Positions 8,942 to 42,548 of a stretch of DNA of 42,548 bases are shown here, one piece after another. The DNA is taken from the IMG/VR virus record IMGVR_UViG_3300035698_025894, positions 1-42,548 of that record; one strand, given 5' to 3'. This stretch comes from a virus. Below the pieces are notes generated by a model. That model was not told the origin of the DNA and did no database searches. It saw only the letters and a list, made by a program, of their open reading frames with translations. Within the stretch, counting starts at the first letter, position 1. Each line of letters starts with the position of its first letter. The position numbers and the translations under genes were made by a program.

Positions 8942-8958
8942 TTACCTTATATATTCTA

Positions 8959-10632
8959 TTAATTTGATGTAGTAAAAAATCCATTTCCGTCAGAACTTTT
9001 AAAATAAACTAAATCCCCTCCAGTAATTCCAATAACCTGTTTTATTAAAGTTATTTCTACGAAATTAGACCCTTTTGGGAAATCATAAACTTTAGTAAAT
9101 GGTGCTATAAAGTTAGCTGTTGAAAATGAATTAAATGGAATAACAGAAGTGATCCCTACTCCGTCTATTCTTCTATTACTATCAGAACTTCTAATGGTAA
9201 TTTTTAGAGTTTCTCCCACGTTTTTTAAATTATTTAAATAGGATACACCATCAGTGGTATTTAATTGTAAGCCAACAAAAAATTTATCTCCTTCTGGAAT
9301 ACCAACGGGATTTATTATTATTTCATTTTTATCATTAGCAAAAGACATTTTAGAATTTGATTGAGGGCCTAATGTATCTATATTACCAAAAAGATACCAA
9401 GTCCTAAGAACACTAAAAACATTAGTCCTATTATCAGATGCCTGATTTATGTAGGTAAAACTATTTGATTCTTTAGGAAAATATACCGAGCCTGCAGCTG
9501 AAATTGTAAATTTATCTGTTCCTACATTGGAATCTAAAGTTTCTATTTTTATTAAATGGTTATCCGGCTTATAACCGTTTATATTTTCATTAAATCCTCC
9601 TCCTTCTAGTGAAACGTCTAATGTACCTGATCCTTCAGGTACTGTATCAACTTTTGAAATTAGTTTAATAGAAGAAATATTTGGATTAGCTAAAGAATTT
9701 AACAAAAGCCTGGAATTTAATTTTATTCTATTATAAGACCCAGAAGAATAACCTATGTTTTTATAACTTGGTTTATAAAAACCACTTTCTGTTAAAATTG
9801 AAATTAAACCATTAGAATCTATATTAATCCCACTTGAGCTATTTGAACTTGTTCCAAAAGTAAATCCGGTTGAAGATCTTATACTAAAATTTTCTTTTAA
9901 ATTAAAAATAAGATCGTGGTTAACTAAATCCGTAGTATCTAGTGTTTGTATATTTAATTTATCCTTAGGAACAAGTAAGGTAAGTGAAGAATTATTTTCT
10001 TCATTATCTGAAAAATATATTCGGGGGTGGTTTAAATAAGTTGAAGGAGTACCATCTATTAAATCACCCCTTGAAAATTCTAAAAGAGAATTGGAACTAG
10101 ATACTTTAGAATCTATAGATATAGTAAACATAGAATGCAAAGGATTTGCATTTGTTTCATTTAAAGTAGAATCTGAAAAATTAAATGTACTGCTTTCGGA
10201 ACGGTTTTTATAGTATATAGCATTAGCTCCAGTAAGACCAGAATAGCTTTCTATATTTTCTGTCCTTTTAAATTCGGAACTTGAAGAAAGATTAAATAAA
10301 GTTTCTACCCACCCAGAACTAGTAAATTTACTTACAGTATTTAAAGGAACTGATGAATTTATCCAATAGTCTCCATTTACTATAGTATCTCCTATTCCTC
10401 CTTGTGGCTGAGTATTTTCTATAAACCATCTATTTCCTCTTATTCCTTTATTTCCTGTAATTCCTTTGTCACCGGGTAACCCTAAAGGACCGGTAGCTCC
10501 TGTAGCTCCTCTAGCTCCTAAATTACCACCTTCTAGCAAACGTAATCCTAAAAACGTAGAATTTATTTTATCTACTGTTACTTTTTGAGTATCGGTAGAT
10601 AATATTTTTTGTATTTTTGGATCCCTTTTCAT
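8959..10632 (-). CDS. Collagen-like tail fibre protein 1 of 3
   Basis: 557 residues starting MKRDPKIQKILSTDTQK. Q16-x4-DKIN is followed by 11 Gly-X-Y triplets (36-68, including GATGATGPLG), WF (69-70) and NGDYWIN. Behind this lie a beta-rich shaft and a C-terminal region ending in GGDLVYFKSSDGNGFFTTSN. The region after the collagen block still aligns loosely by eye with fibres 2 and 3 (for example NANPLHSMFTI against LNPQYSRIVL), supporting duplication from one ancestor. It is the first of three tandem fibre genes and follows the 1797-aa structural gene by 2 bases. Confidence 0.75.
   Translation of the reverse strand: MKRDPKIQKILSTDTQKVTVDKINSTFLGLRLLEGGNLGARGATGATGPLGLPGDKGITGNKGIRGNRWFIENTQPQGGIGDTIVNGDYWINSSVPLNTVSKFTSSGWVETLFNLSSSSEFKRTENIESYSGLTGANAIYYKNRSESSTFNFSDSTLNETNANPLHSMFTISIDSKVSSSNSLLEFSRGDLIDGTPSTYLNHPRIYFSDNEENNSSLTLLVPKDKLNIQTLDTTDLVNHDLIFNLKENFSIRSSTGFTFGTSSNSSSGINIDSNGLISILTESGFYKPSYKNIGYSSGSYNRIKLNSRLLLNSLANPNISSIKLISKVDTVPEGSGTLDVSLEGGGFNENINGYKPDNHLIKIETLDSNVGTDKFTISAAGSVYFPKESNSFTYINQASDNRTNVFSVLRTWYLFGNIDTLGPQSNSKMSFANDKNEIIINPVGIPEGDKFFVGLQLNTTDGVSYLNNLKNVGETLKITIRSSDSNRRIDGVGITSVIPFNSFSTANFIAPFTKVYDFPKGSNFVEITLIKQVIGITGGDLVYFKSSDGNGFFTTSN
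10429..10527 (-). repeat. Collagen-like Gly-X-Y block, 11 triplets (fibre 1)
   Basis: Eleven Gly-X-Y triplets with the classic GATGATGPLG core, ending directly before Trp-Phe. Confidence 0.8.
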
Positions 10633-22689: not shown

Positions 22690-22776
22690 TTTTTAATATT
22701 TTTTCTTTATTCTAAGTTGAAATATATATCCTACCACGACAAACAGTAAAAATTCTAAAAATTAGTGGTAAAAAAC

Positions 22777-23544
22777 ATGGGAAGGAAAAAGCGTTCAGAT
22801 AACGAAGAGATTGATTTCATATTAAGGGATATGGAAGAATCAAGAAAAGAAGATTCAGTAGGAAATAAGGAAATTAGATATTTGGACTCTAGTCTAAAAA
22901 AAATTACACTAAAACCTGCTCAATCTATAATGGTAAATAAATTTAGGGAAAATCAAATATTATTTGTTTTTGGACCAGCAGGAACTGCAAAAACTTTTAC
23001 TTCTTGCTATTGTGCCTTAGATGCTCTTTCAAACAGCGAGAGTATATCAAAAATTTTATTAATTAAGCCAACTATAGAAGCTAGCAAATCATTGGGTTAT
23101 TTACCTGGTGACGAAAAGGAAAAAACTGATCCTTTTATGCAATCTTATTATGATAATTTAAGTAAAATAATAGGACCTGCTAAACTTAGTACTATGCTAA
23201 CACAAACTAACACAATAAAAGTTGAGAATCTTCAATATATGAGAGGAAGGACATTTGATAATTCAATAGTTTTACTAGACGAAGCACAAAACTGTAATTA
23301 TAAAGAAATTATGCTAGCTATTACTAGACTAGGTAAAAATTCAAAAATGATTATATTTGGAGATATTTCTCAATATGACATCAGGGAAAAAGACGTAGCA
23401 CTAAAAGAATTTTTCCAGCTTTTCCAAAAAGTTGATAAGGTAGGGCTTTTTGAATTTGAAAATAAAGATATAGTTAGGTCCGAAATTTTAATAGAAATTA
23501 CAAGGGTTTACGAAAAATGGAGAAAGGAAAAAAACCTAGATTAA
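22777..23544 (+). CDS. phoH: PhoH-like P-loop ATPase
   Basis: 255 residues if translation begins at the ATG at 22777 (MGRKKRSDNEE). The frame also opens at a GTG 12 bases earlier, but ATG with its A-rich leader is preferred. Motifs from this start are Walker A GPAGTAKT (66-73), LPGD (109-112), the PhoH-type ENLQYMRGRTF (150-160), Walker B VLLDEAQN (165-172) and FGDISQYD (194-201). These are all diagnostic of PhoH, a predicted RNA-associated ATPase common in T4-type and marine phages; its role in infection is not settled. It is the only plus-strand gene here, set inside the baseplate operons. Its stop codon overlaps the stop of the convergent propeller gene within ATTAAT, and no terminator hairpin separates them. 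Confidence 0.92.
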   Translation: MGRKKRSDNEEIDFILRDMEESRKEDSVGNKEIRYLDSSLKKITLKPAQSIMVNKFRENQILFVFGPAGTAKTFTSCYCALDALSNSESISKILLIKPTIEASKSLGYLPGDEKEKTDPFMQSYYDNLSKIIGPAKLSTMLTQTNTIKVENLQYMRGRTFDNSIVLLDEAQNCNYKEIMLAITRLGKNSKMIIFGDISQYDIREKDVALKEFFQLFQKVDKVGLFEFENKDIVRSEILIEITRVYEKWRKEKNLD

Positions 23545-26500
23545 TCTAAATCATTAAACGTAGCATCAGGATTATTACTAATAATAATTCCAGACCCAAA
23601 ATCGGGTTTGGAATTATTATTTATTTTTTCGGTTTTTTCTTTTAAATCTTCGATAAGCCTATAAAAATCACTATTTTTAGTTGTAGATTTTTTTGGAAAT
23701 CCATAGTCTTCTGAATTAATAATACTTGGATCCATATCAGAGATTTTTATTTCTAAGTGATTTATTACTTCAATAAAAGAAGTTTTTGATACTTCATAAA
23801 CGTTTCCGTTAGAATCTTCTACAGAATTACATATAGTATATAAACCGGCTTCGTTAAAAGTATAAATAAAATACGGGGAATTTTTAATATCTAAAAGTTC
23901 TTCTCCAGTTTTTTGGTTAATTAGTATCCAACGATATTCAGATTTTCCAAATATACTAGAATCATAATTACTGAAAAATACGGTAGACATAATTGGAACT
24001 TTCATATTTTTTTCATCCCTATGTAAATTTGCCCATTTCCAAGCACTAGTACCAGAATTAGATAATATAGAACCCATAGATTTTCCAGTTTTTATAACAG
24101 GAGCTACAGAAAGGCCAGTTAATATTTCCCTTCCTTCTCCTGTGTTATTTCCTGCATAAAATAAATCTCCAGAGTCTGAATCAGTATAAACGAAATTAGT
24201 TTTAATAAATCCGGTAGAACCTAATAAATCCAAGTCGTAATAATCTATTTTTTCTCCTTCTAGGGTAGTTTTTAATATCGACCTATATTCGGTTCCCCCG
24301 CTTAATCCTTTATATAAAGAATGCGTATAATTAGAAGAAACTGAAGATTGTTCCAATGAAATAGGAATTTCTCCATTATAAAGATTAATTTCATAAGAAT
24401 TTAAAACCTCTGAATATCCTCTAGGTTCTACTGTAATAATTACACTTCCGTATTCACTTTCTATTGATTCTATATTATTTCCAAATATAGGTAGAGATGA
24501 ACCAGTTATAGAATGAAATATATAATGTTTATTTAAACCCGATGAACTAGCCATAGATTTATCGTTTATAACATTCATATTTATTTTACTGTCTATAAGT
24601 TTACCTGTAGAATCTACTAAAATATAAAATCCGTAATTTCCCGCGGTAATACCAGTACCTATCTGGGTACCACTAAATGAAAATGAAGTTGAATTAGCAT
24701 ATCCAGTTATTAATGAGGTACCGTTACTTTTTTCTGTACTTACATTTAAAACTTTTACTAATTCTCCCGGTCCCTCTCCGGAGTTTATACTATTAACGGA
24801 TTTTAAATTTAAATCCTTATCCATTATTAAACGTATATTGTTACTATTTAGTGTTCCCTTATTAGTTCCAATAATTTTTGGTAAACCAATAAAATCAAAT
24901 CTTTTTTTATCTTCCTCTGCATAAGTATATAAAAGAGCTTCACTTCCCTCTATGTTAGCAGAAATACTTATTCTATTTTTTATTATTTCTATTTTTGCAT
25001 TACTTATAAATGATGAACTGTTAACATTAGTAGGGAAATTTCTAAAAGATTTAAGGAAATATTTTTTCCTTATTTCGAAAGGAAGGTTTAGGTCCATTCC
25101 ACCAAAAGAAGTTTCCGAACCTATATTATGATCTATTTCCATAATGAATAAACCCATATTTCCCGTTGCTCCGCTGTCGTACCACGAAGGAAAGTAAGGA
25201 GATCCAGTTCCCCCTGAATATTCAGAAAGGATCCATGGATAATCCCCAGTTGATCCTTGAATATTAGGTGAATTAATATTAGATATACCTACAGCAGAAC
25301 CTGTTGGCCCTCCACCAGATGCTCCACCTGGATAGTTTCCATAAATAAATTCCCCGGCTTCTATATTATTTTTATATCCTCCTAATACATATAAGGATTG
25401 GTTATCCTCAGAATTTTTTATATCATAGATATAAGTTGAATTTCCTCTAATTGTATTATATCCCTTTAATTGTCCAGATTTATTATAATAAACGACTAAA
25501 CCCAGATCTGAAGGTGCCGGGGATCCACTTGTTGAATTCGGGTTATTAACAATTACTGTAGTACCGTCTTCCTTTTTACCAAGATTTATAGAATCAGTAG
25601 AGTTTATACTTAAACCTATAACATAGGTATCACCTAATATATTTACACTCAAATTTGGAGTTGCAGTAGAAATATCACTAGATCCTGTCATTCCAGAAAA
25701 CCATAAATTATTAGGAATTTTACTAGCCTCTTTTAATTCAAAATAATCGGCTATTTCTCCTTTGTTCCAATATTCTTCCTTTCCTGCACTTCCGTCAGAA
25801 ATATCAGATAAAGAGGTACTTAGAAATAAGTTACGTTTATCTAAACCTGGATGTTTACCTACAAGATATAAATCTTGGTAAGTTCTCCAAGAAGGATATT
25901 GCCAAGAATATTTATCAACTCTGGGTATTTTTAATTCGTCTGAAGGTGTATGGTTAACGAAATTCCATCCAGTGGCTCCTATATTTTTTGAAGAAGCGTA
26001 GATATGAGGGGTAACATAATCAAATACCGAAATTGTATCTAAACAGGTTAATAAAATATTTTCCGGATAATATAAGCTTTTTTCATTTTTTGATTTGCTT
26101 AAAAAAGATCCTATTTCAGTAACCTGGTTATTAGGAATGTCTGAATTACTAGAGGTATAGTTTATTATATTATTTCCATTAAAGTAAAATAAACCATTTC
26201 CTTCCCCATTATGTCCGTTACCAACAGCAAAAAATACTTGGCCGTTATTTGCAGATTTTACTATTCTTATTTCAGAAGGACTTGGTATATCAGAATTTAA
26301 AGAATTCCAAACTTTGTATTCATTTTCAGAGCTTAAAAATACTAACCCGTTTTTTGTTCCTATCCATAAATTATTATCGTCGTCAAAATCCAAGCTATAA
26401 CTTACAGAAGAAGGCAATCCTGAATTTTCTGAATTTAATATTCTAACTGAATTTAGCATATTTCCTGAATCAAGAAGGGGTAAATTAATTCTATTACTTC

Positions 26501-27092
26501 CTCCGGCAAATATTATTATTCCTATTTCTGTTGCTACCCAATATTCATAAGTTTTACCGTTAATTCCTTTAGCCTTTATGTCATAGGTATGAGTCCAGTT
26601 ATAGTCAGTTAGTAATTCTTTCCATTTATTTATGGCTTCTTCATACCTAAATAAATATCCACCAGTAACTCCTATAGGGCCAGTAGATCCTGTAACTCCC
26701 ATTCCACCATTAAGTTCCGTTACAAAAGCTAAAGTTTCTCCACCAAACGGGCTTGAATAAATTTTACTTGTTTCGTAAGAATCTCCGGTTAAACCAAGAT
26801 CCTGATGTGTCCAGGTTTTAGCATTTTGTGCATATTCTCCTATTAGTTTAAATATACCAACATTAGAAACATAAGGAGCTGTTGCACAGCCTATCCATTT
26901 ATTATTATATTCATCTATGGAAATAGATCGGGTATCTAAATAATATGGAAGATTACTGGGGACTGAAGAATTTTCAGAATTATATACAGTAAAATTAGAA
27001 CCGTCATATTTTACTATATCTGCTCCAGTAATCCAAATATCATTAGAAGAATCTATACTAATATCTGTTATTGTATTTTCTAAACTTGCCAT
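23541..27092 (-). CDS. Large virion protein with Reg_prop-like beta-propeller repeats and PKD-like C-terminus
   Basis: 1183 residues starting MASLENTITDISIDSSNDIW. The N-terminal 370 residues repeat the pattern (N)DLWIG/T-x-GL-x(F/Y)-(D)G-x-WxxYNSxNSxxPS: NDIWITGADIVKYDG at 17, NNKWIGCATAP at 64, NNLWIGTKNGLVFL near 250 and NGLFYFNGNNIINY near 305. This is the Reg_prop blade pattern known from Bacteroidota hybrid two-component sensors. A GVTGSTGPIGVTGG loop is inserted in it. The middle is beta-rich and unassigned. Near residue 1087 a PKD-like strand set occurs (FNEAGLYTICNSVEDSNGN), and the C-terminus is polar. It is probably a sugar- or receptor-binding baseplate appendage. The start overlaps the previous stop as TAATG. 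Confidence 0.65.
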   Translation of the reverse strand: MASLENTITDISIDSSNDIWITGADIVKYDGSNFTVYNSENSSVPSNLPYYLDTRSISIDEYNNKWIGCATAPYVSNVGIFKLIGEYAQNAKTWTHQDLGLTGDSYETSKIYSSPFGGETLAFVTELNGGMGVTGSTGPIGVTGGYLFRYEEAINKWKELLTDYNWTHTYDIKAKGINGKTYEYWVATEIGIIIFAGGSNRINLPLLDSGNMLNSVRILNSENSGLPSSVSYSLDFDDDNNLWIGTKNGLVFLSSENEYKVWNSLNSDIPSPSEIRIVKSANNGQVFFAVGNGHNGEGNGLFYFNGNNIINYTSSNSDIPNNQVTEIGSFLSKSKNEKSLYYPENILLTCLDTISVFDYVTPHIYASSKNIGATGWNFVNHTPSDELKIPRVDKYSWQYPSWRTYQDLYLVGKHPGLDKRNLFLSTSLSDISDGSAGKEEYWNKGEIADYFELKEASKIPNNLWFSGMTGSSDISTATPNLSVNILGDTYVIGLSINSTDSINLGKKEDGTTVIVNNPNSTSGSPAPSDLGLVVYYNKSGQLKGYNTIRGNSTYIYDIKNSEDNQSLYVLGGYKNNIEAGEFIYGNYPGGASGGGPTGSAVGISNINSPNIQGSTGDYPWILSEYSGGTGSPYFPSWYDSGATGNMGLFIMEIDHNIGSETSFGGMDLNLPFEIRKKYFLKSFRNFPTNVNSSSFISNAKIEIIKNRISISANIEGSEALLYTYAEEDKKRFDFIGLPKIIGTNKGTLNSNNIRLIMDKDLNLKSVNSINSGEGPGELVKVLNVSTEKSNGTSLITGYANSTSFSFSGTQIGTGITAGNYGFYILVDSTGKLIDSKINMNVINDKSMASSSGLNKHYIFHSITGSSLPIFGNNIESIESEYGSVIITVEPRGYSEVLNSYEINLYNGEIPISLEQSSVSSNYTHSLYKGLSGGTEYRSILKTTLEGEKIDYYDLDLLGSTGFIKTNFVYTDSDSGDLFYAGNNTGEGREILTGLSVAPVIKTGKSMGSILSNSGTSAWKWANLHRDEKNMKVPIMSTVFFSNYDSSIFGKSEYRWILINQKTGEELLDIKNSPYFIYTFNEAGLYTICNSVEDSNGNVYEVSKTSFIEVINHLEIKISDMDPSIINSEDYGFPKKSTTKNSDFYRLIEDLKEKTEKINNNSKPDFGSGIIISNNPDATFNDLD

Positions 27093-30000
27093 TATAAACT
27101 TCCTCCTATTTTAATTCCTGCTTTTTTATTAATGCCTTCTTCGTTGTGTTTTTCCGACAGAGCTCCATAACTAAATGGTTTCATACGGGAGCTTATACCT
27201 AAATACGTGCTTTTACTTTCTAACCAAGAATCTACATCTATATATGGAGGATATTCAGAAGTTCCGTTAAAATTAAATCTACCAAAATCCCAGGTTATCG
27301 GAATGTTAAGCATTTTTTTATCAACAGAAGAATAAAAAGATGTACCTGATAAATTACCAAGTCTAAGCTTTCCGTACGATTCAACTATAGTAACGTTGCT
27401 AATTAAAGGATTTCTTATTTCTAAAGAAATACCAGCTCTGTTCGTTCCTCCGGTAACCCCACTAATTATAGTCCCTGGATTGTTATCAGAATATGGTGTT
27501 GGTAATGTCCAATAATCATCTGCTACAGCAATAAGATCTAATAATCCACCGGCTAATCCTAAATTCTGATCAGAAATATATGAATTTATGTATGTAGCAA
27601 TCCCAATGCCGTATTGTGTATCTTCTGCAAGTATCCACGAACCCTCACTGGAATCGTTTCCATATGCCTGAGCATATCCTGTTGATCCAGTTGCTCCTGG
27701 TGTTATAGAGGGGTCTATGGATTCTGGAATAATAATGGGACCATCTAATCTAGACTGGGGATCTGGTAATCCAAAATAGACTGGAATGGTTACTATATTT
27801 CCGTCCCAATATTCAATTTTTATGTCTATACCTAACGGTGGAACAGTAGAAGTTTTGGTTTCACTAGTTCCTACATTAGATAAATAAATAGATTCTGGTT
27901 TACTTGGTAGAATATATTGGGATGGTATGCAAGGATATTTTCCGACAATAGTTCCAGCTGGTCCAGTTATACTTTTTTTACCTTCTATAATTTCTAAAGT
28001 ATCAGTATAAAATCTAGCCCATTGATTTTTGTTTAGTCTAACATCAGAACTTAAATGTAAATCAGCAGAAGTAACCAAACCGATAGTTGGTGGTAATCCT
28101 ACATATCCGGTTTCTCCTGGATCGGGTAAACCTATTGGATTTTTTAGTAAATTATCTATAGTATTTTTATGTATATTTACAGTTCCGCTAGAATTTTTAC
28201 CATTTACGGTAACACTTTTACTATATAAAGATAAATAGGATCTTTGGAATGGGTTTATATCATTATTATAATAAGTATCTTTAATTAAAGCGAATTCAGG
28301 ATTCACTACTTCATTAGAAGAAGGAGAAGGGTATTTTATATCGGAAGTATAATCACCCTCTGTTATATTATCACCAAGAATTTTACCTGAAGCTGTTCCC
28401 CCTAGTGCATTATAGGTATCTAAAGTATTTACTTTATATTTACCCTTATATTCTATATTAAATGGAGAAAATGCTCTCCCCCTTATATAAGACAACTCGT
28501 TATTTACGTGGGGGTAATATAATCCAGTTGGTCCAGTAGAACCACCCCAATATGTATTAGAAAAACCAGATTTAAAGTTTATTTTATTTAATACTGATCC
28601 GTCTGACACAATATATGGTTCTTCGTATCCACCAACGATTTCTCCTCCAACCTTAACTGAATAGCTATATTCTATTCCGCTATTTTTATTTTCTGATGAT
28701 ATTTCATTAATTAATTTTCCGTATGGAGTAGATTCTATAAATCCTGCCTGTTCAAAAGTAGAAGAATACGGAAAGGGAATATAATCATAGCTTTCGTTTA
28801 TTTCTTCTATTGGTCCTAATTTTACTATATTAAGTTTTTTATTTTTATTTCCTATATTAAAACTAGAAGAAGAATACAATGAAACATTACCTAAATGTAT
28901 CGAAGCTGGATTTGAAATATGTGAACCTGTTAAGGTTTCCCAATTCATATATCTTAATTGACCTACTGAATTTTTTGAATTATTACCATTAAAAGTTACA
29001 CCTGTTGCTAAAATTCCATCAGTAGGGAAATCCCACTCAGAATATGTAGGAGACCCTGGATTTGTATTGCTTAAAAGTAACGGAGTTCCCATAAACAATG
29101 GCGTAGGCTCACTAAATTCAAAATTAACATCCCAGGGAGAAATATCAACCTTTATTATTTTGTTTTTGGTATTAGTTCTATAAACAGAATACGAATCTTT
29201 AGTTGTTAAAGAAACGTCAAATTCTCCAATATTATTATATATAACAGAAGGATTATTTCCAGTAGATCCTGTTGGACTTCCCCCAGGAAATTCCCATAAA
29301 TATTCTATTTCATTAGCAGTACTAGTTTCAATAAAGGTTACAGTTTCTCCCTGAATAATGGGAATGGGATAAGCTGTTATTTTTTTATACCATTCATTAT
29401 AAAACTTTCCAAATGGTGTTATTCCTATAGGTGAGTATAGGGCAAATGGATGATGGTCAAATCCCCATATATTTAAATTTTCTTCTATAGATAACCCATT
29501 ATAATAAACATGAAATCCGAACCTTTCAAACGAGTTTATTTTTTTAAAAACTGAAGAAAAAAGTTCTTCTGTTTCTAAAGCTCTAGCTCCAAAATAGCTT
29601 CCCATTTCGGTTATACTAGGCGTTGAAATGTCATTTAAAAAAGAAAAATCCAAATTACTAAATGATAATTCTTCTCCTTGATTTTCCTGGTCAGTAGGGG
29701 AAATGTATATATGATAAGCTGTTATAACCCACTCTGGAATAGCATTAGAAAAAAAAGTATCTAAAGCTTGTTTTACCTGAACATTCCAATCTTTTCTATA
29801 TTCCATTGCATATGTATCAGCTTCACTATAGGAAGCTCCACAAACTATTAACTTTAAATTTGGGAAATTGTTTTTAAATGATGCAATAAAAGTATTTAGA
29901 TCAGAAATATAATCAGAAATAGTATATACACCAGCAACACCGGTTTTATTTGTTTGGCCTAAAAGAAATTTTAAAAGGTAAAGCTCGTTACCTAATTCTA

Positions 30001-30313
30001 TAGCAGTTAATCTATTTGTATGCGACATAATATAATCGACAATAAATTTTTGATTTACTACAGTATCGTTAGTGTTCCATACCCAGATTAAATTTAAATC
30101 GAACTTTTCGCAATAAGCAATGGTTTCATCTAACTTATTTTGACTTATTAAAAAAAAGTTTCCAGAATCTATTTGACCTTGAGGTACTTGATCTAAAAGA
30201 AAATATGTTTTCATTGCCTGGCTTCCCCCAGGAATTCGCAATGTAGTAATACCGTCTAATAAAGGTAAACATTTAGAAAAATCTGTTTGGTTAAATTGTA
30301 CATTTACTATCAT
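27092..30313 (-). CDS. Virion-associated glycoside-hydrolase-like protein (TIM barrel) with PKD domain
   Basis: 1073 residues. The N-terminal 300 residues read as a clan GH-A type (beta/alpha)8 barrel: TTLRIPGG (23-30), LNLIWVWN (73-80), AIELGNEL (104-111) with N109-E110 as the candidate acid/base pair, LKLIVCGASY (153-162), AYHIY (199-203) and ITEMGSY (234-240) with E236 as the candidate nucleophile. Residues about 322-390 form a PKD domain (GETVTFIETST ... EFDVSLTTKDS). The remaining 680 residues are beta-rich and unassigned, with Gly-Ser-Thr-Gly loops. The likely role is cleavage or binding of a host surface polysaccharide during adsorption. No signal peptide is present, which fits a virion component. 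The specific GH family and substrate cannot be told from sequence alone. Confidence 0.65.
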   Translation of the reverse strand: MIVNVQFNQTDFSKCLPLLDGITTLRIPGGSQAMKTYFLLDQVPQGQIDSGNFFLISQNKLDETIAYCEKFDLNLIWVWNTNDTVVNQKFIVDYIMSHTNRLTAIELGNELYLLKFLLGQTNKTGVAGVYTISDYISDLNTFIASFKNNFPNLKLIVCGASYSEADTYAMEYRKDWNVQVKQALDTFFSNAIPEWVITAYHIYISPTDQENQGEELSFSNLDFSFLNDISTPSITEMGSYFGARALETEELFSSVFKKINSFERFGFHVYYNGLSIEENLNIWGFDHHPFALYSPIGITPFGKFYNEWYKKITAYPIPIIQGETVTFIETSTANEIEYLWEFPGGSPTGSTGNNPSVIYNNIGEFDVSLTTKDSYSVYRTNTKNKIIKVDISPWDVNFEFSEPTPLFMGTPLLLSNTNPGSPTYSEWDFPTDGILATGVTFNGNNSKNSVGQLRYMNWETLTGSHISNPASIHLGNVSLYSSSSFNIGNKNKKLNIVKLGPIEEINESYDYIPFPYSSTFEQAGFIESTPYGKLINEISSENKNSGIEYSYSVKVGGEIVGGYEEPYIVSDGSVLNKINFKSGFSNTYWGGSTGPTGLYYPHVNNELSYIRGRAFSPFNIEYKGKYKVNTLDTYNALGGTASGKILGDNITEGDYTSDIKYPSPSSNEVVNPEFALIKDTYYNNDINPFQRSYLSLYSKSVTVNGKNSSGTVNIHKNTIDNLLKNPIGLPDPGETGYVGLPPTIGLVTSADLHLSSDVRLNKNQWARFYTDTLEIIEGKKSITGPAGTIVGKYPCIPSQYILPSKPESIYLSNVGTSETKTSTVPPLGIDIKIEYWDGNIVTIPVYFGLPDPQSRLDGPIIIPESIDPSITPGATGSTGYAQAYGNDSSEGSWILAEDTQYGIGIATYINSYISDQNLGLAGGLLDLIAVADDYWTLPTPYSDNNPGTIISGVTGGTNRAGISLEIRNPLISNVTIVESYGKLRLGNLSGTSFYSSVDKKMLNIPITWDFGRFNFNGTSEYPPYIDVDSWLESKSTYLGISSRMKPFSYGALSEKHNEEGINKKAGIKIGGSL

Positions 30314-30331: not shown

Positions 30332-33300
30332 TTATATACTTTTTCTAAAATTAGATTTGTTTACCTCATTAGATCCGGGTACTGTTCTAGGAGCAGGATA
30401 ACCAGAGGTTATTCCTACTACAGAATTAAAAGTATACCCGGTAGGTCCGTTAATAGTTAAAAAATTTTGATATAATTCGGAAGGGTATACAAGATAATTA
30501 AAATTAGTTATATTTTCATCAGAAGATAAATTAAGCTGCTCCGCTGCTTCGCCTAAGGTTAAATTAGAACCTGAAAGAGTAATACCTACCGGAAATGGAC
30601 TTATTTTTTCAGAAGGTGAAACTTTTATATAATCTCCAGATTTTATTCCATAAAGACTAAATCCGCCTAACCAATCGTTATTATATTCGAAACTATCCCA
30701 TGTATGTGAATATAGATCGTCCCAGGTAACCTTGTCACCAAAATTATCCCACGACATTTTTTTTGTTCCCCACCACTTTAAATTAGGGTTTGGTAAACAA
30801 ATATTATTTTCTTCCCATTTTGTATATTCTGACTCTGGTTTAACCCCGCCAGAAAATTCTTTAGACGAAGATGATATAGTAACCGAGCCATCGGTTACTA
30901 TATTAAATTTAATTCCGTTACCGCTTTCAAAAATATTGTCATTAGCAAATACAAAAATCTTGCCGCTAGAAGGATTGTATGGGTCCGTAGAAGCTACATA
31001 ATCTGGGGTTGTATATGTTTCATTAATTTCAGATATTAATCCGCTTACAGTTGCCTCTATTTCATAATCTATGATCAAGTCTGATATTTTTCTATCCCCA
31101 GCATAAACTTTTATTGATCCACCTCCAGTAACGGATTGGGTCGGATAAAAAGCCGGATCAACTAAAAGATAATTAATATTAAATTCTATCCCACCTTTTT
31201 GCTCTAATACCTTGGGTATAGTAAACGTAAATTCATCTGCACCTAAGGGAATAGTAACCGGCCAATCTCCATTTACTTCAGAAATTGAGCCTTTTATATA
31301 AATAGTAGAACCGTCTATAAAGTTGTGGGGGGTTGAAGTTTTTATTTCAGCTATTGAATATTGTGAAAGTGTCCCGACTCTATAAGAAGTAATAGATTCT
31401 ATTTCTATATAATTTTGGGTAAATGTAAATTCTGCAGAAGGGTGTGTACCTTCCGTTCTAGTTTTAACCAATGCGTCCTGTCCTCCATATGAAGAATTTC
31501 CGTAATTTATAAAATTTAAAGCATCAAAAGATAGGGTTTTCCTAGCATCATCATAAGTTTTTCCTTCTCCTGGATATTCCCATATTCCTTTGTAGTCATC
31601 CCAGGGACGAATCATTTGATCCCACGAATATTCTTCGTTTTCTTGATACCTTGTCCAGGCATCTATATTTATGGTTTTTGGAGAAACCTCGACCGCTTTG
31701 TCTATAATTTTAGTACTTTTAAAATTATAAGAATCATAAACATTACACGATAATTTATAAATTCCTGTATATGGGAGAAAATGGGGAAGTTTATAAAATT
31801 CCATAATGGGTCCTCTAAACCTAAATTCATAAGGGGTCCCAGGTTGGTTCGGATCTTTCGTAATTATCCATTCTATTTCAACATAATTAGAAAAATTTAT
31901 ATTATCCCAGGTAAATAAACTTAAATTTTGTTTATTAGAAAAAATAGATGATTCTCCAAAAGTACTTGTTCCTAGACCCGTACTTATTGTATACAATCCC
32001 GTGGTATAGTCTATATTTATTATTTCTCCAACTTCCTCTAGATAAGAAAAGCTACCTAAAGAATCGTCACCCTTAATAGTAACAAAATCCCCTGTTTCCA
32101 TTACGGGAAGCTGTAAAGAATCCCAGGTAACATTTAAATCGTCCCATGAAAAATCATCTAGCTCTAAACTGAATATAATAGGCATTCCTACTGGTACTGG
32201 TACACGGTTTCCAGTTTTAGGATCTACAAAATAGCTTGGATCATATCTATTATCTCCCAATTCTACTATTTTTCCCTCCTGTTTCTCCCTGTAAAATTTT
32301 GATATAGCTTCAATAAAAAATTTGGCTTCTTGTCCTGAATATTTTTGATTGTTTGCTAATGGGTTTGAAATATTACCAAAATCTGATATTGAAGGAATTT
32401 CTATAGTTATTATTCCATTCATAGAAGGATTAGAAGTTCCTGAATAATAGTACAGTTCTTCATTTTCTTCAGGTAATACGTTAAATATTATTTCTGTTCC
32501 AAAAACTGCACCGTTATTTATTATTCCGTTAGGCGGATCTAAAATTAATCCGGGATTTTTTGTTATAAATAAAGGGAATTCAGAAGAGCTGTTTTTTATG
32601 ATATATTTTTTACCCTTTTGAAATAATAATTTAGGATTATTTCCTAAATAATCACTGACTCTAAATGAATCTCCGTACCCACCAGGAGTAAAAGTTAAAT
32701 TTATAACATTATTATAGTTACTAGGGGTTTGTATAGATTTAGAATTTGGTCTAATATTAAATGCGCTAAGGTTTTCTATAAAACCATAATCTGGATTAAC
32801 AGAAACATTTGGATTAAACCCGGAGTCTATTTCTAATCTATTTACTTTATCGCTCCATACTCTAGTGTTATAGATATTATAATAAACTCCTTCCCCAGTA
32901 ATGTCAATAATTCTAGCATTTAGGGGTAGGTACGTTTCCTTTAATCTTTCCTTAAGAGCAAATAATTTAAGAATTATTTCCTCTTGAGAAAACATATAAA
33001 CATTTTCAGTTACCGGATATCCATAAGGATCGGTTTCGCCTGTTGGTTTTTGTATATCATAATAAAGGCCAAAAAATGAAGTTTTTTTGTATGTATTACT
33101 AGGAACTAAAGTACTTCCAGAAGAAACGTCTAATTTATAATCTCCGTTTTTATTTGGTCCATATGTTTGGGTTAATTTATATTTTCCGCTATTTTCATTG
33201 TTTAATATATCCTTTATTAAAACATTTTGTGTATATCTTCCTTCAGAAAGACTTAATTGATCTATAGCTCCAGACATAGATTGGAGTGGACTTATAATAG

Positions 33301-34492
33301 CTTCTGAATATTTAACATTTAACCAATATTCTTTAATCCGAAGGTCTTGGTATCCAAAAAACCGAATAGCATTAACTAGCCCTTTATAACTTCCGATATA
33401 AGGAAAAATATCTTCCCCGGAAACCATAAGCTCCTTTCTTTTTTCGTTAATTTCTATATAATCAGGAAATGGTTCATCGGGGTCATGATTTCTAAGAATT
33501 GTAGAATCCTTTGGAATAAAAGATCTTCCTAAATTTTTTGTTAATACATCTAGCCTTTCATCATCTCCTATTACTTCCCCATAAAAATCTAATTCAAGAA
33601 CTTTTAAAGACCCTTCATCGGTAAGTTCTTCAACTATCATTTTTCTTTCATATACATCCGCTCCTATATTAATAGTGTTCATAGCTACGTTAATAGATAA
33701 ATGGGATTCTACGTTATTAGAGGTTATAATATATCCATTTTCATAAGAATCTCCAGTATTTTCTACCGTTTCATAAGCAACATTGGGATAATTATAAATG
33801 GATGGTTCTCCCGTTTCAGGATCATTTTCGGAAACTTTATAACTAAATATTATATTAGTAACATCAGTGTTACCATAACTGTCATTAGCCCATTTTGTTC
33901 TCCATTTATTTTTTACGCTATCAGATAAATCTGAATGTGGATACCCAAGAACTATTGGGCCATTTGAGATTTTTTTAAATTCCTGTAATATGTATATTTG
34001 GGAATTTTCAAAAAGACCCGCCGAAGTTTCGTCAAAATATACAGAGCCTTTGAAATATCCGCCTGGCCTATTTTTATATGAAGTTTCAAAATATAGCTTT
34101 TTTCCGTTTCCTATAAAAGAATTTCCAGTAAAAGATTTAAATATAATATCTATTTCGGTCCCTCCTATAGTAATTTGGTCAACTTTTCCTTTTATTTTAT
34201 TAGAGCTAGATAATACTGAAATATTTAAAGTTACCTCTGCACCCTTTAAAATATAATCAGAAATATCTAATGCCCATAAAGTTATGTCAAAATTATTAGA
34301 ATCCTTTAAATTAAAAGTTATTTTATTTTCCGAGTCTAATAAAGACGTATTAACATTTCCTTTTAATGAAGTATCTGAATCCTCTGTATACAAAAATTCA
34401 GAATCTAGTTTACTTGGACCAGTAGGCCCAACATATTCAAAGTTTAAAGGTTCTCCGACTTTATTAAAAAATAATAATTTTATATTAGCCAT
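30332..34492 (-). CDS. Large baseplate wedge protein, gp7-like candidate
   Basis: 1386 residues starting MANIKLLFFNKVGEPLNFEY. Near residues 360-390 the segment IFPYIGSYKGLVNAIRFFGY resembles the helix in gp7-type wedge proteins and P2 gpI-like proteins. Its place directly after gp6-like and gp25-like genes fits the T4 wedge gene 7 (1032 aa in T4). A PKD-like stretch lies near 890-920 (FLPYTGIYKLSCNVYDS). Between about 770 and 1270 the motif (S/T)-W-D-(D/N/S) recurs eight times (FSWDDL, VTWDSL, FTWDNI, YSWDQM, RPWDDY, MSWDNF, VTWDDL, HTWDSF). The wedge assignment is moderately supported; the extra length and the W-D motifs are not seen in T4 gp7 and suggest added peripheral domains. Confidence 0.55.
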   Translation of the reverse strand: MANIKLLFFNKVGEPLNFEYVGPTGPSKLDSEFLYTEDSDTSLKGNVNTSLLDSENKITFNLKDSNNFDITLWALDISDYILKGAEVTLNISVLSSSNKIKGKVDQITIGGTEIDIIFKSFTGNSFIGNGKKLYFETSYKNRPGGYFKGSVYFDETSAGLFENSQIYILQEFKKISNGPIVLGYPHSDLSDSVKNKWRTKWANDSYGNTDVTNIIFSYKVSENDPETGEPSIYNYPNVAYETVENTGDSYENGYIITSNNVESHLSINVAMNTINIGADVYERKMIVEELTDEGSLKVLELDFYGEVIGDDERLDVLTKNLGRSFIPKDSTILRNHDPDEPFPDYIEINEKRKELMVSGEDIFPYIGSYKGLVNAIRFFGYQDLRIKEYWLNVKYSEAIISPLQSMSGAIDQLSLSEGRYTQNVLIKDILNNENSGKYKLTQTYGPNKNGDYKLDVSSGSTLVPSNTYKKTSFFGLYYDIQKPTGETDPYGYPVTENVYMFSQEEIILKLFALKERLKETYLPLNARIIDITGEGVYYNIYNTRVWSDKVNRLEIDSGFNPNVSVNPDYGFIENLSAFNIRPNSKSIQTPSNYNNVINLTFTPGGYGDSFRVSDYLGNNPKLLFQKGKKYIIKNSSSEFPLFITKNPGLILDPPNGIINNGAVFGTEIIFNVLPEENEELYYYSGTSNPSMNGIITIEIPSISDFGNISNPLANNQKYSGQEAKFFIEAISKFYREKQEGKIVELGDNRYDPSYFVDPKTGNRVPVPVGMPIIFSLELDDFSWDDLNVTWDSLQLPVMETGDFVTIKGDDSLGSFSYLEEVGEIINIDYTTGLYTISTGLGTSTFGESSIFSNKQNLSLFTWDNINFSNYVEIEWIITKDPNQPGTPYEFRFRGPIMEFYKLPHFLPYTGIYKLSCNVYDSYNFKSTKIIDKAVEVSPKTINIDAWTRYQENEEYSWDQMIRPWDDYKGIWEYPGEGKTYDDARKTLSFDALNFINYGNSSYGGQDALVKTRTEGTHPSAEFTFTQNYIEIESITSYRVGTLSQYSIAEIKTSTPHNFIDGSTIYIKGSISEVNGDWPVTIPLGADEFTFTIPKVLEQKGGIEFNINYLLVDPAFYPTQSVTGGGSIKVYAGDRKISDLIIDYEIEATVSGLISEINETYTTPDYVASTDPYNPSSGKIFVFANDNIFESGNGIKFNIVTDGSVTISSSSKEFSGGVKPESEYTKWEENNICLPNPNLKWWGTKKMSWDNFGDKVTWDDLYSHTWDSFEYNNDWLGGFSLYGIKSGDYIKVSPSEKISPFPVGITLSGSNLTLGEAAEQLNLSSDENITNFNYLVYPSELYQNFLTINGPTGYTFNSVVGITSGYPAPRTVPGSNEVNKSNFRKSI

Positions 34493-35024: not shown

Positions 35025-36749
35025 TTATTGGTTTTTATTAATTAGTAATTTTTTTTGCTGAGAAGATCTTTGAGCGCTGTATCCTTTAGGAACTATTTCA
35101 GTAACAGTAATATTTAAGCTACCCGGTTTATTTTTAATTATTCCTTCATTAAAATAAGAACCGTTTCTATCCTCGAATCCTCCTCTAAGTAAAACTAATT
35201 CATCTTTAGCCATTATAATATCTCCGTATTCATTAAGTCCTAATAATTTAGATTTTTCTTTAACTGAAATGTTATTTAACTCCGATATTGTTAATTTATT
35301 GGCTTCGTTTTTTTGTCCTATAAAATAAAAAGAAACTGAATCTATTCCGGATATTCCTTCTATTATAGCAATAATATCTGATTTTGGTACTCTGTCTCTT
35401 CTTTTAAGGTTTATAAAATATTCTGATATTTGTTCCCTAATATTATCTTTTATTATATCTATGTCATATCCTTCAAATACAGTTAAAATTACATTACCCA
35501 CATATCTAGTAATACTAGGTTCTAAAAGTTTAACAACAGTAGTAGCAATCATTGAACCAGAATCTTCTATTAAATTAAGTACCTGGGTTCTTTGTGAAGT
35601 AGTTAATAGGAAATCTTGAATATCTAGATCAAAATAATCTTCGTTTGATTGTAAATTCAAAGTTACATTAGGAACTAAATAAATATAAATGATGTTGTCA
35701 TCATTTAAATTACCATCATTAAAAGTAGAAAATGCACTAACTTGAGAAAATACACCAAGCTTTTCTAAAAATATCTCATAATTTGTAGCATTAGCAAAAA
35801 CATAAGCTCGGCTAGTTTTTGGGGCAACAAGTTTTATTAAAGCAATAGATTCTGGGTCTGTACCAAAAGAGGGATCGATTTCATTATTTATAGTTAAATA
35901 ATTATTTAAATTTACTTCTTTACCAAATAAATCTTCTCCGGATTCAGTAAAAACAAAGGTTAATGGGTTAATTTTAGTAGAAACTAAATTACCTCCAAAT
36001 CCTAAAGATTCTAAATATTCTATTCTTATTATTGATCCCCTTTCTGGAACTTTACCAAAGTTGGTATTACCAAAGTAAATATCAACACCTATTGATATTC
36101 CAAGCTTAGATAAAAATCCCTTTCCATCAAAAGGAATGTCGTAAAGGGAATCGTATCTTTCCCATTTTTCTTCATTTACAAAGGTTTCTATATACTGTTG
36201 ATCTACATAGGATCCAGAAATACTATTAACATTAAAACTTTGCAAGCTTTTTTTATTTCCAGTAAATCCTGCACTTTTAAATGTTCCCTGTACAGTTTTA
36301 AATTTTTTCAATGTGTCCGCGGTTAACAAAAACTTAGTTTTATTTCCGTTCATTACCAAAGTATAGGTTAATCCGTTTTGTTCACATCGGATTTTCGTGT
36401 TATTTTTTATTATTATAGCACCTCCATCTACATCAGCTTCCCTAGTATTCCATTTTATTGAAACCTCTCCTTGAGCAGCGCTTGCTCTTCCCGGATCATA
36501 TCCGGAAATTCTAGCTAAACTTTTAACAGAATAATCACGGGTAGCTTGCATAATATTCAACTCAGTAATAGAATCCTCTATAAAATAAAGAATAAACTGT
36601 GAAATATTTTGGATAACAAAAAGAATTTGACCCCATGCAGAAGCTACTGTAAATACATTTCTTGATTGATCGTAAGCTCTTTGTAAATAATCAAAGGAAT
36701 CTGCTACCAGGCCTTTGATTAAAATATTATTTTTTTTAAATATATTCAT
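35025..36749 (-). CDS. 6: Baseplate wedge protein gp6-like (baseplate J family)
   Basis: 574 residues. The N-terminus is helical (DYLQRAYDQSRNVFTVASAW, FILYFIEDSITELNIMQATR). It is followed by the baseplate-J pattern: a Ser/Ala-rich GYDPGRASAAQGEVSIKW, and a strand with NNTKIRCEQNGLTYTL. Later come a DIYFGNTNFGKVPERGSIIR domain and a C-terminal IREQISEYFINLKRRDRVPKSDI region, as in gp6/gp47/mu gp47 proteins that form the inner ring of the wedge around the hub. Length is close to T4 gp6 (660 aa). It follows gp25 by 5 bases, the same 25-6 order seen in many contractile tails. The assignment is strong. Confidence 0.85.
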   Translation of the reverse strand: MNIFKKNNILIKGLVADSFDYLQRAYDQSRNVFTVASAWGQILFVIQNISQFILYFIEDSITELNIMQATRDYSVKSLARISGYDPGRASAAQGEVSIKWNTREADVDGGAIIIKNNTKIRCEQNGLTYTLVMNGNKTKFLLTADTLKKFKTVQGTFKSAGFTGNKKSLQSFNVNSISGSYVDQQYIETFVNEEKWERYDSLYDIPFDGKGFLSKLGISIGVDIYFGNTNFGKVPERGSIIRIEYLESLGFGGNLVSTKINPLTFVFTESGEDLFGKEVNLNNYLTINNEIDPSFGTDPESIALIKLVAPKTSRAYVFANATNYEIFLEKLGVFSQVSAFSTFNDGNLNDDNIIYIYLVPNVTLNLQSNEDYFDLDIQDFLLTTSQRTQVLNLIEDSGSMIATTVVKLLEPSITRYVGNVILTVFEGYDIDIIKDNIREQISEYFINLKRRDRVPKSDIIAIIEGISGIDSVSFYFIGQKNEANKLTISELNNISVKEKSKLLGLNEYGDIIMAKDELVLLRGGFEDRNGSYFNEGIIKNKPGSLNITVTEIVPKGYSAQRSSQQKKLLINKNQ

Positions 36750-36754
36750 TTTTA

Positions 36755-37129
36755 TTAAAATACTTTTAAACTTATTACTGGAATGTTACTATTTCCATCC
36801 ACTGGAATATAGAAATCAAATAATCCAATATCTCTCTGAGTTCCTAAATTAAATTTTATATCAAAAAATCCACCAACACCATTAAATACCGGCGCATAGG
36901 TAAATATGTGTTTTTTTATTTGATCCCTTACTGCTTCTTCAGAAAGATTCATTTCAAATAAAAGAGCATCCAAACCTATACCAAACATCGGATCTCCCAA
37001 AACCTCTCCTTTATTAGTTAAAAGAAGCATTTTTATTTGGCCAATAGCAATTTCTACAGAATCAGTAACCTCTAATTGTTCTTTTTTATATCCTGGATCA
37101 GACGGGTCTCTGTTATAAATTTCTTTCAT
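36755..37129 (-). CDS. 25: Baseplate wedge protein gp25-like
   Basis: 124 residues, close to T4 gp25 (132 aa). The signature is IGQIKMLLLTNKGEVLGDPM (29-48) running into FGIGLDALLFE: ten residues of a helix, then the (G)E...P-x-FG turn that defines gp25/GPW proteins of T4, P2, Mu and type VI secretion systems. A C-terminal strand pair follows (DIGLFDFYIPV, IPVISLKVF). gp25 joins the wedge to the sheath initiator. The start has a rare clear Shine-Dalgarno (TAAGGA, 6 bases before ATG), which lies in the loop of a small hairpin. Confidence 0.92.
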   Translation of the reverse strand: MKEIYNRDPSDPGYKKEQLEVTDSVEIAIGQIKMLLLTNKGEVLGDPMFGIGLDALLFEMNLSEEAVRDQIKKHIFTYAPVFNGVGGFFDIKFNLGTQRDIGLFDFYIPVDGNSNIPVISLKVF

Positions 37130-37983: not shown

Positions 37984-39384
37984 TTAATTATCATTTTTAA
38001 AAAAGAAATCCTGGTTTTTATTATTTTTATCCTTAAGTCTAGAATCTGTAACAAATCTAGCATTTCTCTTTTCTGACCATCCTTTAACAGTCTCTGTAGT
38101 TTTGCTTATTTTAGAATTTTTAGCGGTATTTCCAGCTCTTAGTACCCCACCATCTATGTCGCAGTCTATTTTTTTACCAGGAGAATCTATAAAACAGTCT
38201 ATAAGCTGATTAGTAAATTCAGCAGAAGAATTTTTTATTTTACTTTTTTTAACAACTGTTTCTCCTACTATATTTGAATTAATAACCTCACTTCCGCTTA
38301 CTTTACACCCATAAAAAGAACAATCTTTAATAACAGAATTTTTAATATTACAATTTATTAAATCAAAACCCGAAATGTTAAATGCACCTCTTATTTTAGC
38401 ATCTTTTACTTGGAATCTTCCTATACTTGTGTCATAATTTAAAAACCCGCTTTTTAAATTACCATCTACGATTAGATCAAATATTTTATCTCTTATCGTG
38501 GTATAATAGGTTTTTATATTTTCGTCCCACCCCTTAAGGTCTACCAAAATATGAAAATCTGGATAATAAGTAAAAAACCTTTTTGGATCAGAAAAACTTT
38601 TAACGACATTTTTATATTCTTTCATCATCGTTTCAAGTTTGGCTACGTCATCTTTACTATAACCTTTTATTCTACCACTAAGCATATCATAAATATAAAG
38701 ACAAACATAATCTATTATTTCTCTAATATCCTTAGTTTTTTTTTGATAGTCGGTTCCTCCTATATAGCGTATTTCTAAATAACCTTTAGAAAGTTTAGAA
38801 AAATTAACCCCGTAGTACTTATCATCCGGAATTTTAAACAATTTAGGATCTATAGAGCTTATGTTTTCAACAAAGGAAAATCTATTTCTTGGTACAACTC
38901 TTTTTATAGACTTAGCATACACATTATTAGTACGATTTCCAAATTTATTATAAATCATACCCTCGTCAAAACCTAAAAGAAACTTGAGTCTATCTATATG
39001 CTCAATTCTAGTAATTAATTCGGTATTAAACTTATCAAAGCTTATTGAAAATTGGAAAGAGCAAGAATCCGTAGTATACGCATTCTTGTCTATCCATCTT
39101 AACATTTTATAAAATATAGGTATTGCTTCATTATAAGGTAACGGACCAGTAATTAATTCATACATTTTAGATCCTCCTGAATAATCAGGTTCTAATTTAA
39201 AAGTATTTTTATCTACTTTCATTTTTGAATGGTACTTATCACACAGCTCTACATTTTTCCCCAGTGTTTCGGAAATCGATTTTTTCATAGAGCCTTTTAG
39301 CATACTAGAAAAGTATTCAAATTCGAACCCAATTACAGCAGAATTTAGTGCAGTTACTTTATCAAAATGGTTTCTTTTATTCAT
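37984..39384 (-). CDS. Putative amidoligase (COOH-NH2 ligase) fused to a C-terminal beta-helix
   Basis: 466 residues. Residues about 15-215 have the pattern of phage amidoligase-like proteins of the glutamine-synthetase/COOH-NH2 ligase superfamily: VIGFEFEYF (17-25), LEPDYSGGSKMYELITGPLP (64-83), CSFQFSISF (108-116) and GYLEIRYIGGTDY (201-213), with paired Glu residues that could bind Mg-ATP. A helical region follows. Residues about 330-400 form a right-handed beta-helix of pentapeptide-like repeats (FDLINCNIKNSVIKDCSFYG, then CKVSGSEVINSNIVGE). The C-terminus is basic and polar. Such ligases are predicted to form amide bonds on proteins or peptidoglycan; the substrate here is unknown. It lies between structural genes and its start overlaps the S1-like gene by 8 bases. 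Confidence 0.6.
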   Translation of the reverse strand: MNKRNHFDKVTALNSAVIGFEFEYFSSMLKGSMKKSISETLGKNVELCDKYHSKMKVDKNTFKLEPDYSGGSKMYELITGPLPYNEAIPIFYKMLRWIDKNAYTTDSCSFQFSISFDKFNTELITRIEHIDRLKFLLGFDEGMIYNKFGNRTNNVYAKSIKRVVPRNRFSFVENISSIDPKLFKIPDDKYYGVNFSKLSKGYLEIRYIGGTDYQKKTKDIREIIDYVCLYIYDMLSGRIKGYSKDDVAKLETMMKEYKNVVKSFSDPKRFFTYYPDFHILVDLKGWDENIKTYYTTIRDKIFDLIVDGNLKSGFLNYDTSIGRFQVKDAKIRGAFNISGFDLINCNIKNSVIKDCSFYGCKVSGSEVINSNIVGETVVKKSKIKNSSAEFTNQLIDCFIDSPGKKIDCDIDGGVLRAGNTAKNSKISKTTETVKGWSEKRNARFVTDSRLKDKNNKNQDFFFKNDN

Positions 39385-41202: not shown

Positions 41203-41862
41203 TTATTTTGTTTTAGTATTTTTACTTAATACACCACTAGGTAATGGAATGGTCGGAGGTGTTCCATTACCCGCGTGGACGTGGGTATCATATATTAATT
41301 TAAAAGAATCTCCCTTTATTACAGATTCTACAGCTTTTTCTCCTAACTCAACATTTTTAGAATTTATAATTACCTTATTATTTTCCATTCGGATTTCATC
41401 TTCTCCCATTTTAAGTACGATTCTAAGCTGTCCTTCGTTTTGAGTATCTAGTTGAATTTTTGCATTATCAAGTTCAAAAAGAAATCCGTCCCTTTTTGTA
41501 TAAAGTAAGTGTAATGGCCCAGGTTGAGCATCCTCGTCATATAATAAAACGTGAGCTCCCTCGTAAGATTCTTTTATTTTTTCAAGCATTTCTTTAGAAT
41601 GCGAATGGATGAAATAATAAAACAAATTATAATAATTTTCTCCGTCCATATCAATACCAACTATTGTACCCTCTTTAGGTGTTGAGATACTTCCTCCTGA
41701 ATTAGAGCCAGCAAAAATCATTCCTCCACTTTGTTCTGCCCACGGAATGTCCTCGACTTCCAAGTCGTCAAATAAACCAAAAATTCGAACCCTAGCTCTT
41801 CCTTGGTAAAGAGGATCCTTATTGTCTACTATTTTTCCGTATCTAACTTTTTGTTTTGGCAT
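41203..41862 (-). CDS. 5: Baseplate hub / central spike protein, gp5-like without lysozyme domain
   Basis: 219 residues. The N-terminal OB fold is diagnostic: VRYGKIVDNKDPLYQGRARV (6-25), RIFGLFDDLEVEDIPWAEQS (26-45), and a GTIVGIDMDGENYYNLFYY strand. This is the VgrG/gpV/gp5 OB pattern. A beta-structured part follows (GFLFELDNAKIQLDTQ, IRMENNKVIINSKNVELG) that should form the trimeric spike helix. The C-terminal YDTHVHAGNGTPPTIPLP resembles the tip or PAAR-binding end. T4 gp5 has a lysozyme domain between these parts; it is missing here, so cell-wall cutting must be done by another protein. It follows the repeat protein by 2 bases. Confidence 0.8.
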   Translation of the reverse strand: MPKQKVRYGKIVDNKDPLYQGRARVRIFGLFDDLEVEDIPWAEQSGGMIFAGSNSGGSISTPKEGTIVGIDMDGENYYNLFYYFIHSHSKEMLEKIKESYEGAHVLLYDEDAQPGPLHLLYTKRDGFLFELDNAKIQLDTQNEGQLRIVLKMGEDEIRMENNKVIINSKNVELGEKAVESVIKGDSFKLIYDTHVHAGNGTPPTIPLPSGVLSKNTKTK

Positions 41863-41864
41863 AT

Positions 41865-42548
41865 TTATTCGTTAAATTTTTCATCTTTTGGGTGATTGTC
41901 ACCCAAACTTAGGTCGTATTTCGTAGATGGCTTAGAGTTAGGAACTTTTTTTAGTTCTTCGTTGCTAAAATTTCCGCTAGTTTCGGGATATACCTTACCT
42001 AAAGAATTTTTAGAATCTTTTACTTTATAAGTTTCGTAGGTATTTATAGTATTTGAAATAGTATTTTTATCTATTTCGGGAATTTCTTTTTTTGAACCTA
42101 AATTAGAATCAGAAGGAACTTTTTCGTTGTTCGGATAAACACTATCCGTTAAATAGGAAGCAGAAAAGTTTTCTTCGTTGTTCGGATAAACACTATCCGT
42201 TAAAGGGGAAGCAGAAAAGTTTTCTTCGTTGTTCGGATAAACACTATCCGATAAAGAAGAATCAGAAGGAACTTTTTCGTTGTTCGGATAAACACTATCC
42301 GATAAAGAAGAATCAGAAGGAACTTTTTCGTTGTTCGTATAAACACTATCCGATAAAGAGGAATTATTTGTTGGTGAATCAGGATAAACATCACCTTTTA
42401 CATTTGGATAAACCCTATCAGGTAGTCCCAAATCAGATCCAGGCGAATCGGAATAAACATCACCTTTTACATTTGGATAAACCCTATCAGGTAGACCTAA
42501 ATTAGATCCAGGTGAATCAGGATATACATCTCCTTTTACATTTGGATA
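41865..42548 (-). CDS. Tandem-repeat protein, N-terminus beyond window edge
   Basis: The frame is open from the stop at 41865-41867 to the window edge (about 227 residues). The TTG near 42431 is inside a repeat and is not a believable start, so the gene begins upstream of this window. Two in-frame repeat families are seen: a 23-residue unit (VYPNVKGDVYPDSPGSNLGL plus PDR) and a 17-residue unit with two variants (VYPNNEKVPSDSSLSDS and VYPNNEENFSASPLTDS). Both share a VYPN core. After the repeats comes a Lys/Ser-rich tail (KVYPETSGNFSNEELKKV). It is acidic, Ser/Pro/Asn-rich and probably extended. A fibrous, adhesive or linker role next to the hub is possible; no family is recognised. Confidence 0.6.
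   Translation of the reverse strand, partial: YPNVKGDVYPDSPGSNLGLPDRVYPNVKGDVYSDSPGSDLGLPDRVYPNVKGDVYPDSPTNNSSLSDSVYTNNEKVPSDSSLSDSVYPNNEKVPSDSSLSDSVYPNNEENFSASPLTDSVYPNNEENFSASYLTDSVYPNNEKVPSDSNLGSKKEIPEIDKNTISNTINTYETYKVKDSKNSLGKVYPETSGNFSNEELKKVPNSKPSTKYDLSLGDNHPKDEKFNE
41887..41907 (-). promoter_or_regulatory. Perfect 9-bp stem-loop just upstream of the hub gene
   Basis: TTTGGGTGA and TCACCCAAA form a perfect 9-bp stem around a 3-base loop, inside the last codons of the repeat protein and about 25 bases before the hub ATG. No U-run follows on either strand, so it is not a standard terminator. It could affect mRNA processing or translation of the hub gene, or be a coding coincidence. Confidence 0.35.
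42104..42360 (-). repeat. 51-bp tandem repeat inside a coding gene, about five copies
   Basis: The core TTCGGATAAACACTATCCG (plus strand) starts at 42130, 42181, 42232, 42283 and 42334 (last copy TTCGT), exactly 51 bases apart, so each copy adds 17 codons in frame. Two sequence variants occur, KVPSDSS-type and NFSASPL-type. The period and coding frame exclude a CRISPR array. Confidence 0.9.
42403..42548 (-). repeat. 69-bp tandem repeat inside the same gene, at least two copies
   Basis: TTTGGATAAACCCTATCAGG occurs at 42403 and 42472, and the same core starts again at 42541 at the window edge, 69 bases apart each time (23 codons). The array continues outside the window, so the copy number is unknown. 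Confidence 0.85.

Follow-up and report, generated by a model that had tools for sequence, protein, structure and literature searches.

The window analysed here is a 42.5 kb virus record (42,548 nt). A single uninterrupted open reading frame with an ATG start occupies positions 27092-30313 and encodes a protein of 1073 aa. A frame of these limits and this length had been reported from the letters of the window and proved to be real; its orientation, on the minus strand, had been left unstated in the original prediction. The features of the locus are as follows.

23541..27092, minus strand: downstream 1183-aa protein, a conserved neighbour with a weak propeller-repeat match (Pfam, relatives).
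27092..29368, minus strand: conserved baseplate-region part of the 1073-aa protein, comprising a PKD domain (residues 316-382) and a long beta-rich region to residue 1073 (Pfam, comparison with L005, the nearest phage).
29375..30313, minus strand: N-terminal GH-A-like (beta/alpha)8 barrel, residues 1-313 (profile of cellular relatives, masked control, AlphaFold model, PDB fold matches).
29594..29614, minus strand: ITEMGSY (residues 234-240), strand 7, with E236 as proposed nucleophile (alignment A2, model strand 232-239).
29981..29998, minus strand: ELGNEL (residues 106-111), end of strand 4, with E110 as proposed acid/base (invariance in A2, alignment with GH51 structure 3s2c).
30221..30241, minus strand: LRIPGGS (residues 25-31), strand 2 (R26 aligned with R67 of Clostridium thermocellum Araf51).
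30332..34492, minus strand: large baseplate-region protein encoded upstream, with related proteins in Lak and Tenacibaculum phages (tblastn; phrog_28177).
35025..36749, minus strand: gp6/J-like baseplate wedge protein (phrog_219, E 7e-29).
36755..37129, minus strand: gp25-like baseplate wedge protein (Pfam, PHROGs).
41203..41862, minus strand: baseplate hub/tail-lysozyme-like protein (phrog_430, E 1e-14).

The baseplate setting that had been proposed for the gene was supported by its gp25-like, wedge-like and hub/lysozyme-like neighbours, together with a tail-tube gene also present in the window. By tblastn, two of the neighbours were matched best by an uncultured 462 kb phage and by the Lak phages that infect Prevotella (about 540 kb); Tenacibaculum phages were matched as well. 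As these baseplate proteins resemble those of large Bacteroidota phages, the window probably represents part of a jumbo phage genome. The 1183-aa downstream neighbour, possibly a receptor-binding protein, matched Reg_prop weakly (below the cut-off) towards its N-terminus and PKD weakly towards its C-terminus.

Elsewhere in the window, a PhoH-like gene (22765-23544, plus strand; phrog_170, E 6e-67) runs opposite to the tail genes, and a similar-looking gene has the same place and orientation in L005. Three consecutive proteins encoded at 5653-10632 (minus strand) carry collagen-like G-x-y stretches near their N-termini and are probably tail fibres. Inside the baseplate cluster, positions 37984-39384 (minus strand) encode an amidoligase-like protein (PF12224, below the cut-off) with a repeat-rich C-terminal part and 86% identity to its L005 counterpart. 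The protein encoded at 41865-42548 (minus strand) contains repeated DSVYPNNE-type units and runs off the end of the window.

The 1073-aa protein had been described as a barrel followed by a PKD domain and long beta-rich regions, and Pfam located the PKD domain in agreement with this order (PF00801, E 1.4e-9, 38.2 bits versus a cut-off of 23.5). The L005 orthologue, which begins with the PKD domain and is without the barrel, shares 66% identity with residues 319-1073; the upstream proteins of the two phages are 73% identical. Orthologues of the PKD protein in L003, L004, L005, L007, L008 and L009, which represent two lineages, are found between the same neighbours and all start at the PKD domain. 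The barrel was detected in none of eight related records (0/8), a set that held no positive control. The junction between the barrel and the PKD part falls at residues 313-319, and no shift in composition was observed across it (GC3 of 0.18 in the barrel and 0.17 in its surroundings). Between the end of the upstream gene and the start codon lie 18 bases, compared with 25 in L005. In a tree, the barrel stood on an extremely long branch of 3.74 changes per site and could not be placed.

Single-sequence searches with residues 1-313 returned no match in the PDB, Pfam, PHROGs, phages, plasmids, or viral and genome contigs. Bacterial genomes were scanned with a DNA pattern for ELGNE[LF]YL, and in 38 of the 95 stretches recovered the encoded protein has RxPxG at the appropriate distance upstream. 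Most of these 38 cellular proteins also contain WN, HxY and [IVL]TE[YWF] in the same order, and the sequences of several show a signal- or lipoprotein-like N-terminus. When a profile was built from the 38 members without the phage protein, it picked only this ORF among the 83 open frames of the window (58 bits, E 3.6e-18). The pattern that fetched the family had been derived from the query's own ELGNE, and this circularity was controlled by masking the octamer ELGNELYL; the phage domain still scored 32.6 bits, versus 7.5 for the best of 200 shuffles. These scores match residues 1-313 to a bacterial family of putative secreted or lipoprotein GH-A-like barrels.

Compared with solved structures, the family profile matched GH51 (E 8.9e-24, with a similar result from a trimmed alignment) and GH79 beta-glucuronidases (E 4e-6), and gave weak matches to heparanase and GH44. 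Among the 36 rows of alignment A1, eight match NCBIfam ArfA and seven match Pfam Glyco_hydro_cc (PF11790) at E <= 0.1. The phage domain alone passes no curated GH model in Pfam or NCBIfam: neither the GH51 model PF22848 (at E <= 10) nor PF11790 matched it, and GH79 gave no Pfam or PDB sequence match, the link to that family running through the family profile and the fold only. The beta-sandwich model Alpha-L-AF_C had no match in the phage protein, and the PKD domain, which begins directly after the barrel, leaves no room for the C-terminal beta-sandwich of GH51 and GH79. Because it passes no curated model and has no room for the sandwich, the barrel is, as judged from profiles and model, GH-A-like and related to GH51 and GH79, and filed in neither.

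A contig search found no close bacterial match to the barrel. Scans for other barrel-bearing phages found none; one of these scans missed L005 too, and its own empty result is hence weak. Several candidates were rejected. A viral match to the barrel (L010) was a different protein sharing an octamer, the five matches from a gapped motif scan of viral contigs were all out-of-frame chance matches, and Hydrolase_4 and PDDEXK matches were weak, far below the cut-off, and dropped.

The claim of an N-terminal GH-A-like barrel was upheld by fold comparison as well as by profile homology. Folded as a single sequence, the barrel was modelled poorly (pLDDT 35). An AlphaFold model made with an alignment of 19 relatives reached a pLDDT of 69.3 and a pTM of 0.74; the rows of that alignment had been picked so that E236 lines up, and the model is thus not independent on this residue. 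A PDB fold search with the model returned 45 matches at E <= 1e-3 (best E 2e-6), every one of them GH79 or GH51. In a search of viral models the best match was an unnamed protein (E 1.4e-4), and several weaker matches were to phage proteins annotated as GH5. We consider the predicted fold class secure and its details not, since TM-scores (TMq) of the PDB matches were only 0.34-0.52 and strand 8 was poorly formed in the model.

The motifs and residue numbers given in the original prediction were all found in place: LRIPGG from residue 25, ELGNEL from 106 (N109, E110), AYHIY from 199 and ITEMGSY from 234 (E236). The two halves of the proposed GH-A active site fared differently. E106-L-G-N-E110 is invariant in A2, with ELGNE being also the bait that fetched the family. 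The phage N109-E110 aligned with the GNE of 3s2c, and E110 follows the model strand 102-107. Assignment of E110 as the acid/base is well supported by this alignment and by the model. On strand 2, the R67A entry of Araf51 (5o7z) shows an A opposite the phage R26. The R.PGG...E.GNE pair arose in 0 of 50,000 shuffles of the domain.

Support for E236 is of another kind. Residues 205-313, which carry it, obtained no profile score alone, and profiles of the short subfamily also failed to rescue the C-terminal third. The first full alignment and the C-terminal alignment were rejected as off register at E236, and half-by-half alignment was unsuccessful; the rows of A2 were therefore chosen for register, and the invariance of T235 and E236 in A2 is that of members selected for aligning at E236. 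Within the C-terminal third, no acidic residue other than E236 lies in a TE motif on a predicted strand, and the 35 residues from H201 to E236 equal the spacing read in L058, a short cellular relative. Shuffling the last 109 residues produced the motif [ILVFC]TE[YWFM] at any position in 3.5% of cases and within the expected interval in 1.4%; taken alone the motif would be evidence of modest weight. By motif, order and model, rather than by profile score, E236 is the likely nucleophile and the only credible candidate.

Relatives of L058 that consist of one short barrel stand in tandem beside four sulfatase genes and esterase-like genes. Such tandem arrays, at L157:6631-8740 and L158:6481-8627, adjoin several sulfatase genes (Pfam-confirmed in L157), which suggests a sulfated-polysaccharide locus. 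Among the neighbours of L058 in its own genome, inspection by eye found no sulfatase-type cluster. The neighbourhoods hint at sulfated polysaccharide for some relatives and say little about the phage.

We favor, with a probability of roughly 0.6, the reading that a complete clan GH-A-like barrel is joined N-terminally to a conserved PKD protein of the baseplate region and would bind and cut a host glycan. Gene order would place the protein in the virion, and homology points to catalysis and to the class of substrate. The part common to other phages, from the PKD domain onward, would presumably hold the protein on the tail, with the barrel carried outside at the free N-terminus. The target of the barrel would be a glycan in the envelope or matrix of the host, which it would bind and then cleave through a retaining mechanism (double displacement), with E110 as acid/base and E236 as nucleophile, and cleavage would clear the way for the tail during attachment. 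More tentatively, the barrel might found a phage-borne clan GH-A family apart from GH51 and GH79, an exchangeable enzymatic head acquired at the outer end of a baseplate protein and directed against a polysaccharide of Bacteroidota hosts; this target is called possibly sulfated on account of the genes that adjoin some of the short cellular relatives.

It seems unlikely that the barrel is a former enzyme which now serves as a non-catalytic glycan-binding domain, only aiding adhesion to the host surface. The very long branch, which could mean relaxed constraint, the poorly conserved C-terminal third and the missing sandwich domain would fit such a role, and binding suffices for adsorption; however, R26, N109, E110, W176, H201, Y203, T235 and E236 are all kept at about 20% overall identity. 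Some tail glycosidases act on the wall, and the baseplate location would suit a barrel acting like a tail lysozyme, on peptidoglycan or a different layer beneath the outer membrane, instead of on a surface glycan. We regard this as distinctly improbable: the PDB relatives act on arabinan, glucuronides and similar polysaccharides and not on peptidoglycan, the phage has a separate hub/lysozyme-like gene, and some related short proteins adjoin sulfatases.

The remaining alternatives concern the origin of the fusion. Since the nearest phage has a PKD protein in the same place without the barrel, either the barrel was fused to a virion-type protein or it was lost in relatives. An ancestral barrel with the same function, lost in the sampled relatives, would accord with the near-identical GC3 values, which give no sign of very recent import, but all six sampled orthologous loci from two lineages start at the PKD domain. 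Even with sampling this thin, gain of an N-terminal head on the window's lineage is the simplest reading of the sequences, and loss is a rather improbable alternative. A metagenomic fragment known from one copy might raise the suspicion that misassembly or a frame error has brought a bacterial gene and a phage gene together. The uninterrupted frame, the uniform base composition, an upstream spacing comparable to that in L005 and the failure to find a close bacterial match to the barrel make such an artefact very improbable.

Under the favored reading, gain of a glycan-cutting head, an enzyme domain sits on a baseplate-region protein whose orthologues are without one. The close barrel-less relative is a natural control, and the step from structural protein to enzyme is thereby directly testable. 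The case points to a glycan-cutting activity, directed at Bacteroidota, that has yet to be described. Because the domain escapes profile libraries altogether, other large phages may carry heads of this sort that go unnoticed.

Among known systems, GH51 alpha-L-arabinofuranosidases (C. thermocellum Araf51 and T. petrophila 3s2c) share with the phage domain the RxPGG strand, the GNE acid/base strand, the order of motifs and the barrel fold. In contrast to them, the phage domain matches no GH51 model, is without a beta-sandwich, comprises 313 aa and is borne on a phage structural protein. The GH79 beta-glucuronidase of Acidobacterium capsulatum (3vny) and heparanases were the best fold matches by E-value, but the phage domain differs in having neither a direct sequence match to GH79 nor a sandwich domain. 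Short Bacteroidota lipoprotein-like barrels such as L058 (with PF11790 Glyco_hydro_cc and PF07745 GH53 matches) consist of the barrel alone, at a length similar to that of the phage domain, and share with it the order ELGNELY, WN, YHIYI, ITEYG and the same H-to-E spacing; unlike the phage domain, with which they have about 23% identity, these proteins are cellular, some beside sulfatase genes. TIM-barrel (transglycosidase) domains have been reported in tail fibre/spike proteins of Acinetobacter phages with depolymerase activity (PMC11823257), which have other hosts and another architecture and are likened here by description, not sequence. RcGTA-type phages have a GTA TIM-barrel-like tail protein (PMC8601537); likened by description too, it has the domain inside a tail protein, as here, under a different family name. 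The architecture, which had been called unusual, is therefore less isolated than implied: a TIM barrel on a phage tail protein is already known, and what is new is the family and the host group, together with the position of the barrel at the N-terminus of a PKD protein from the baseplate region.
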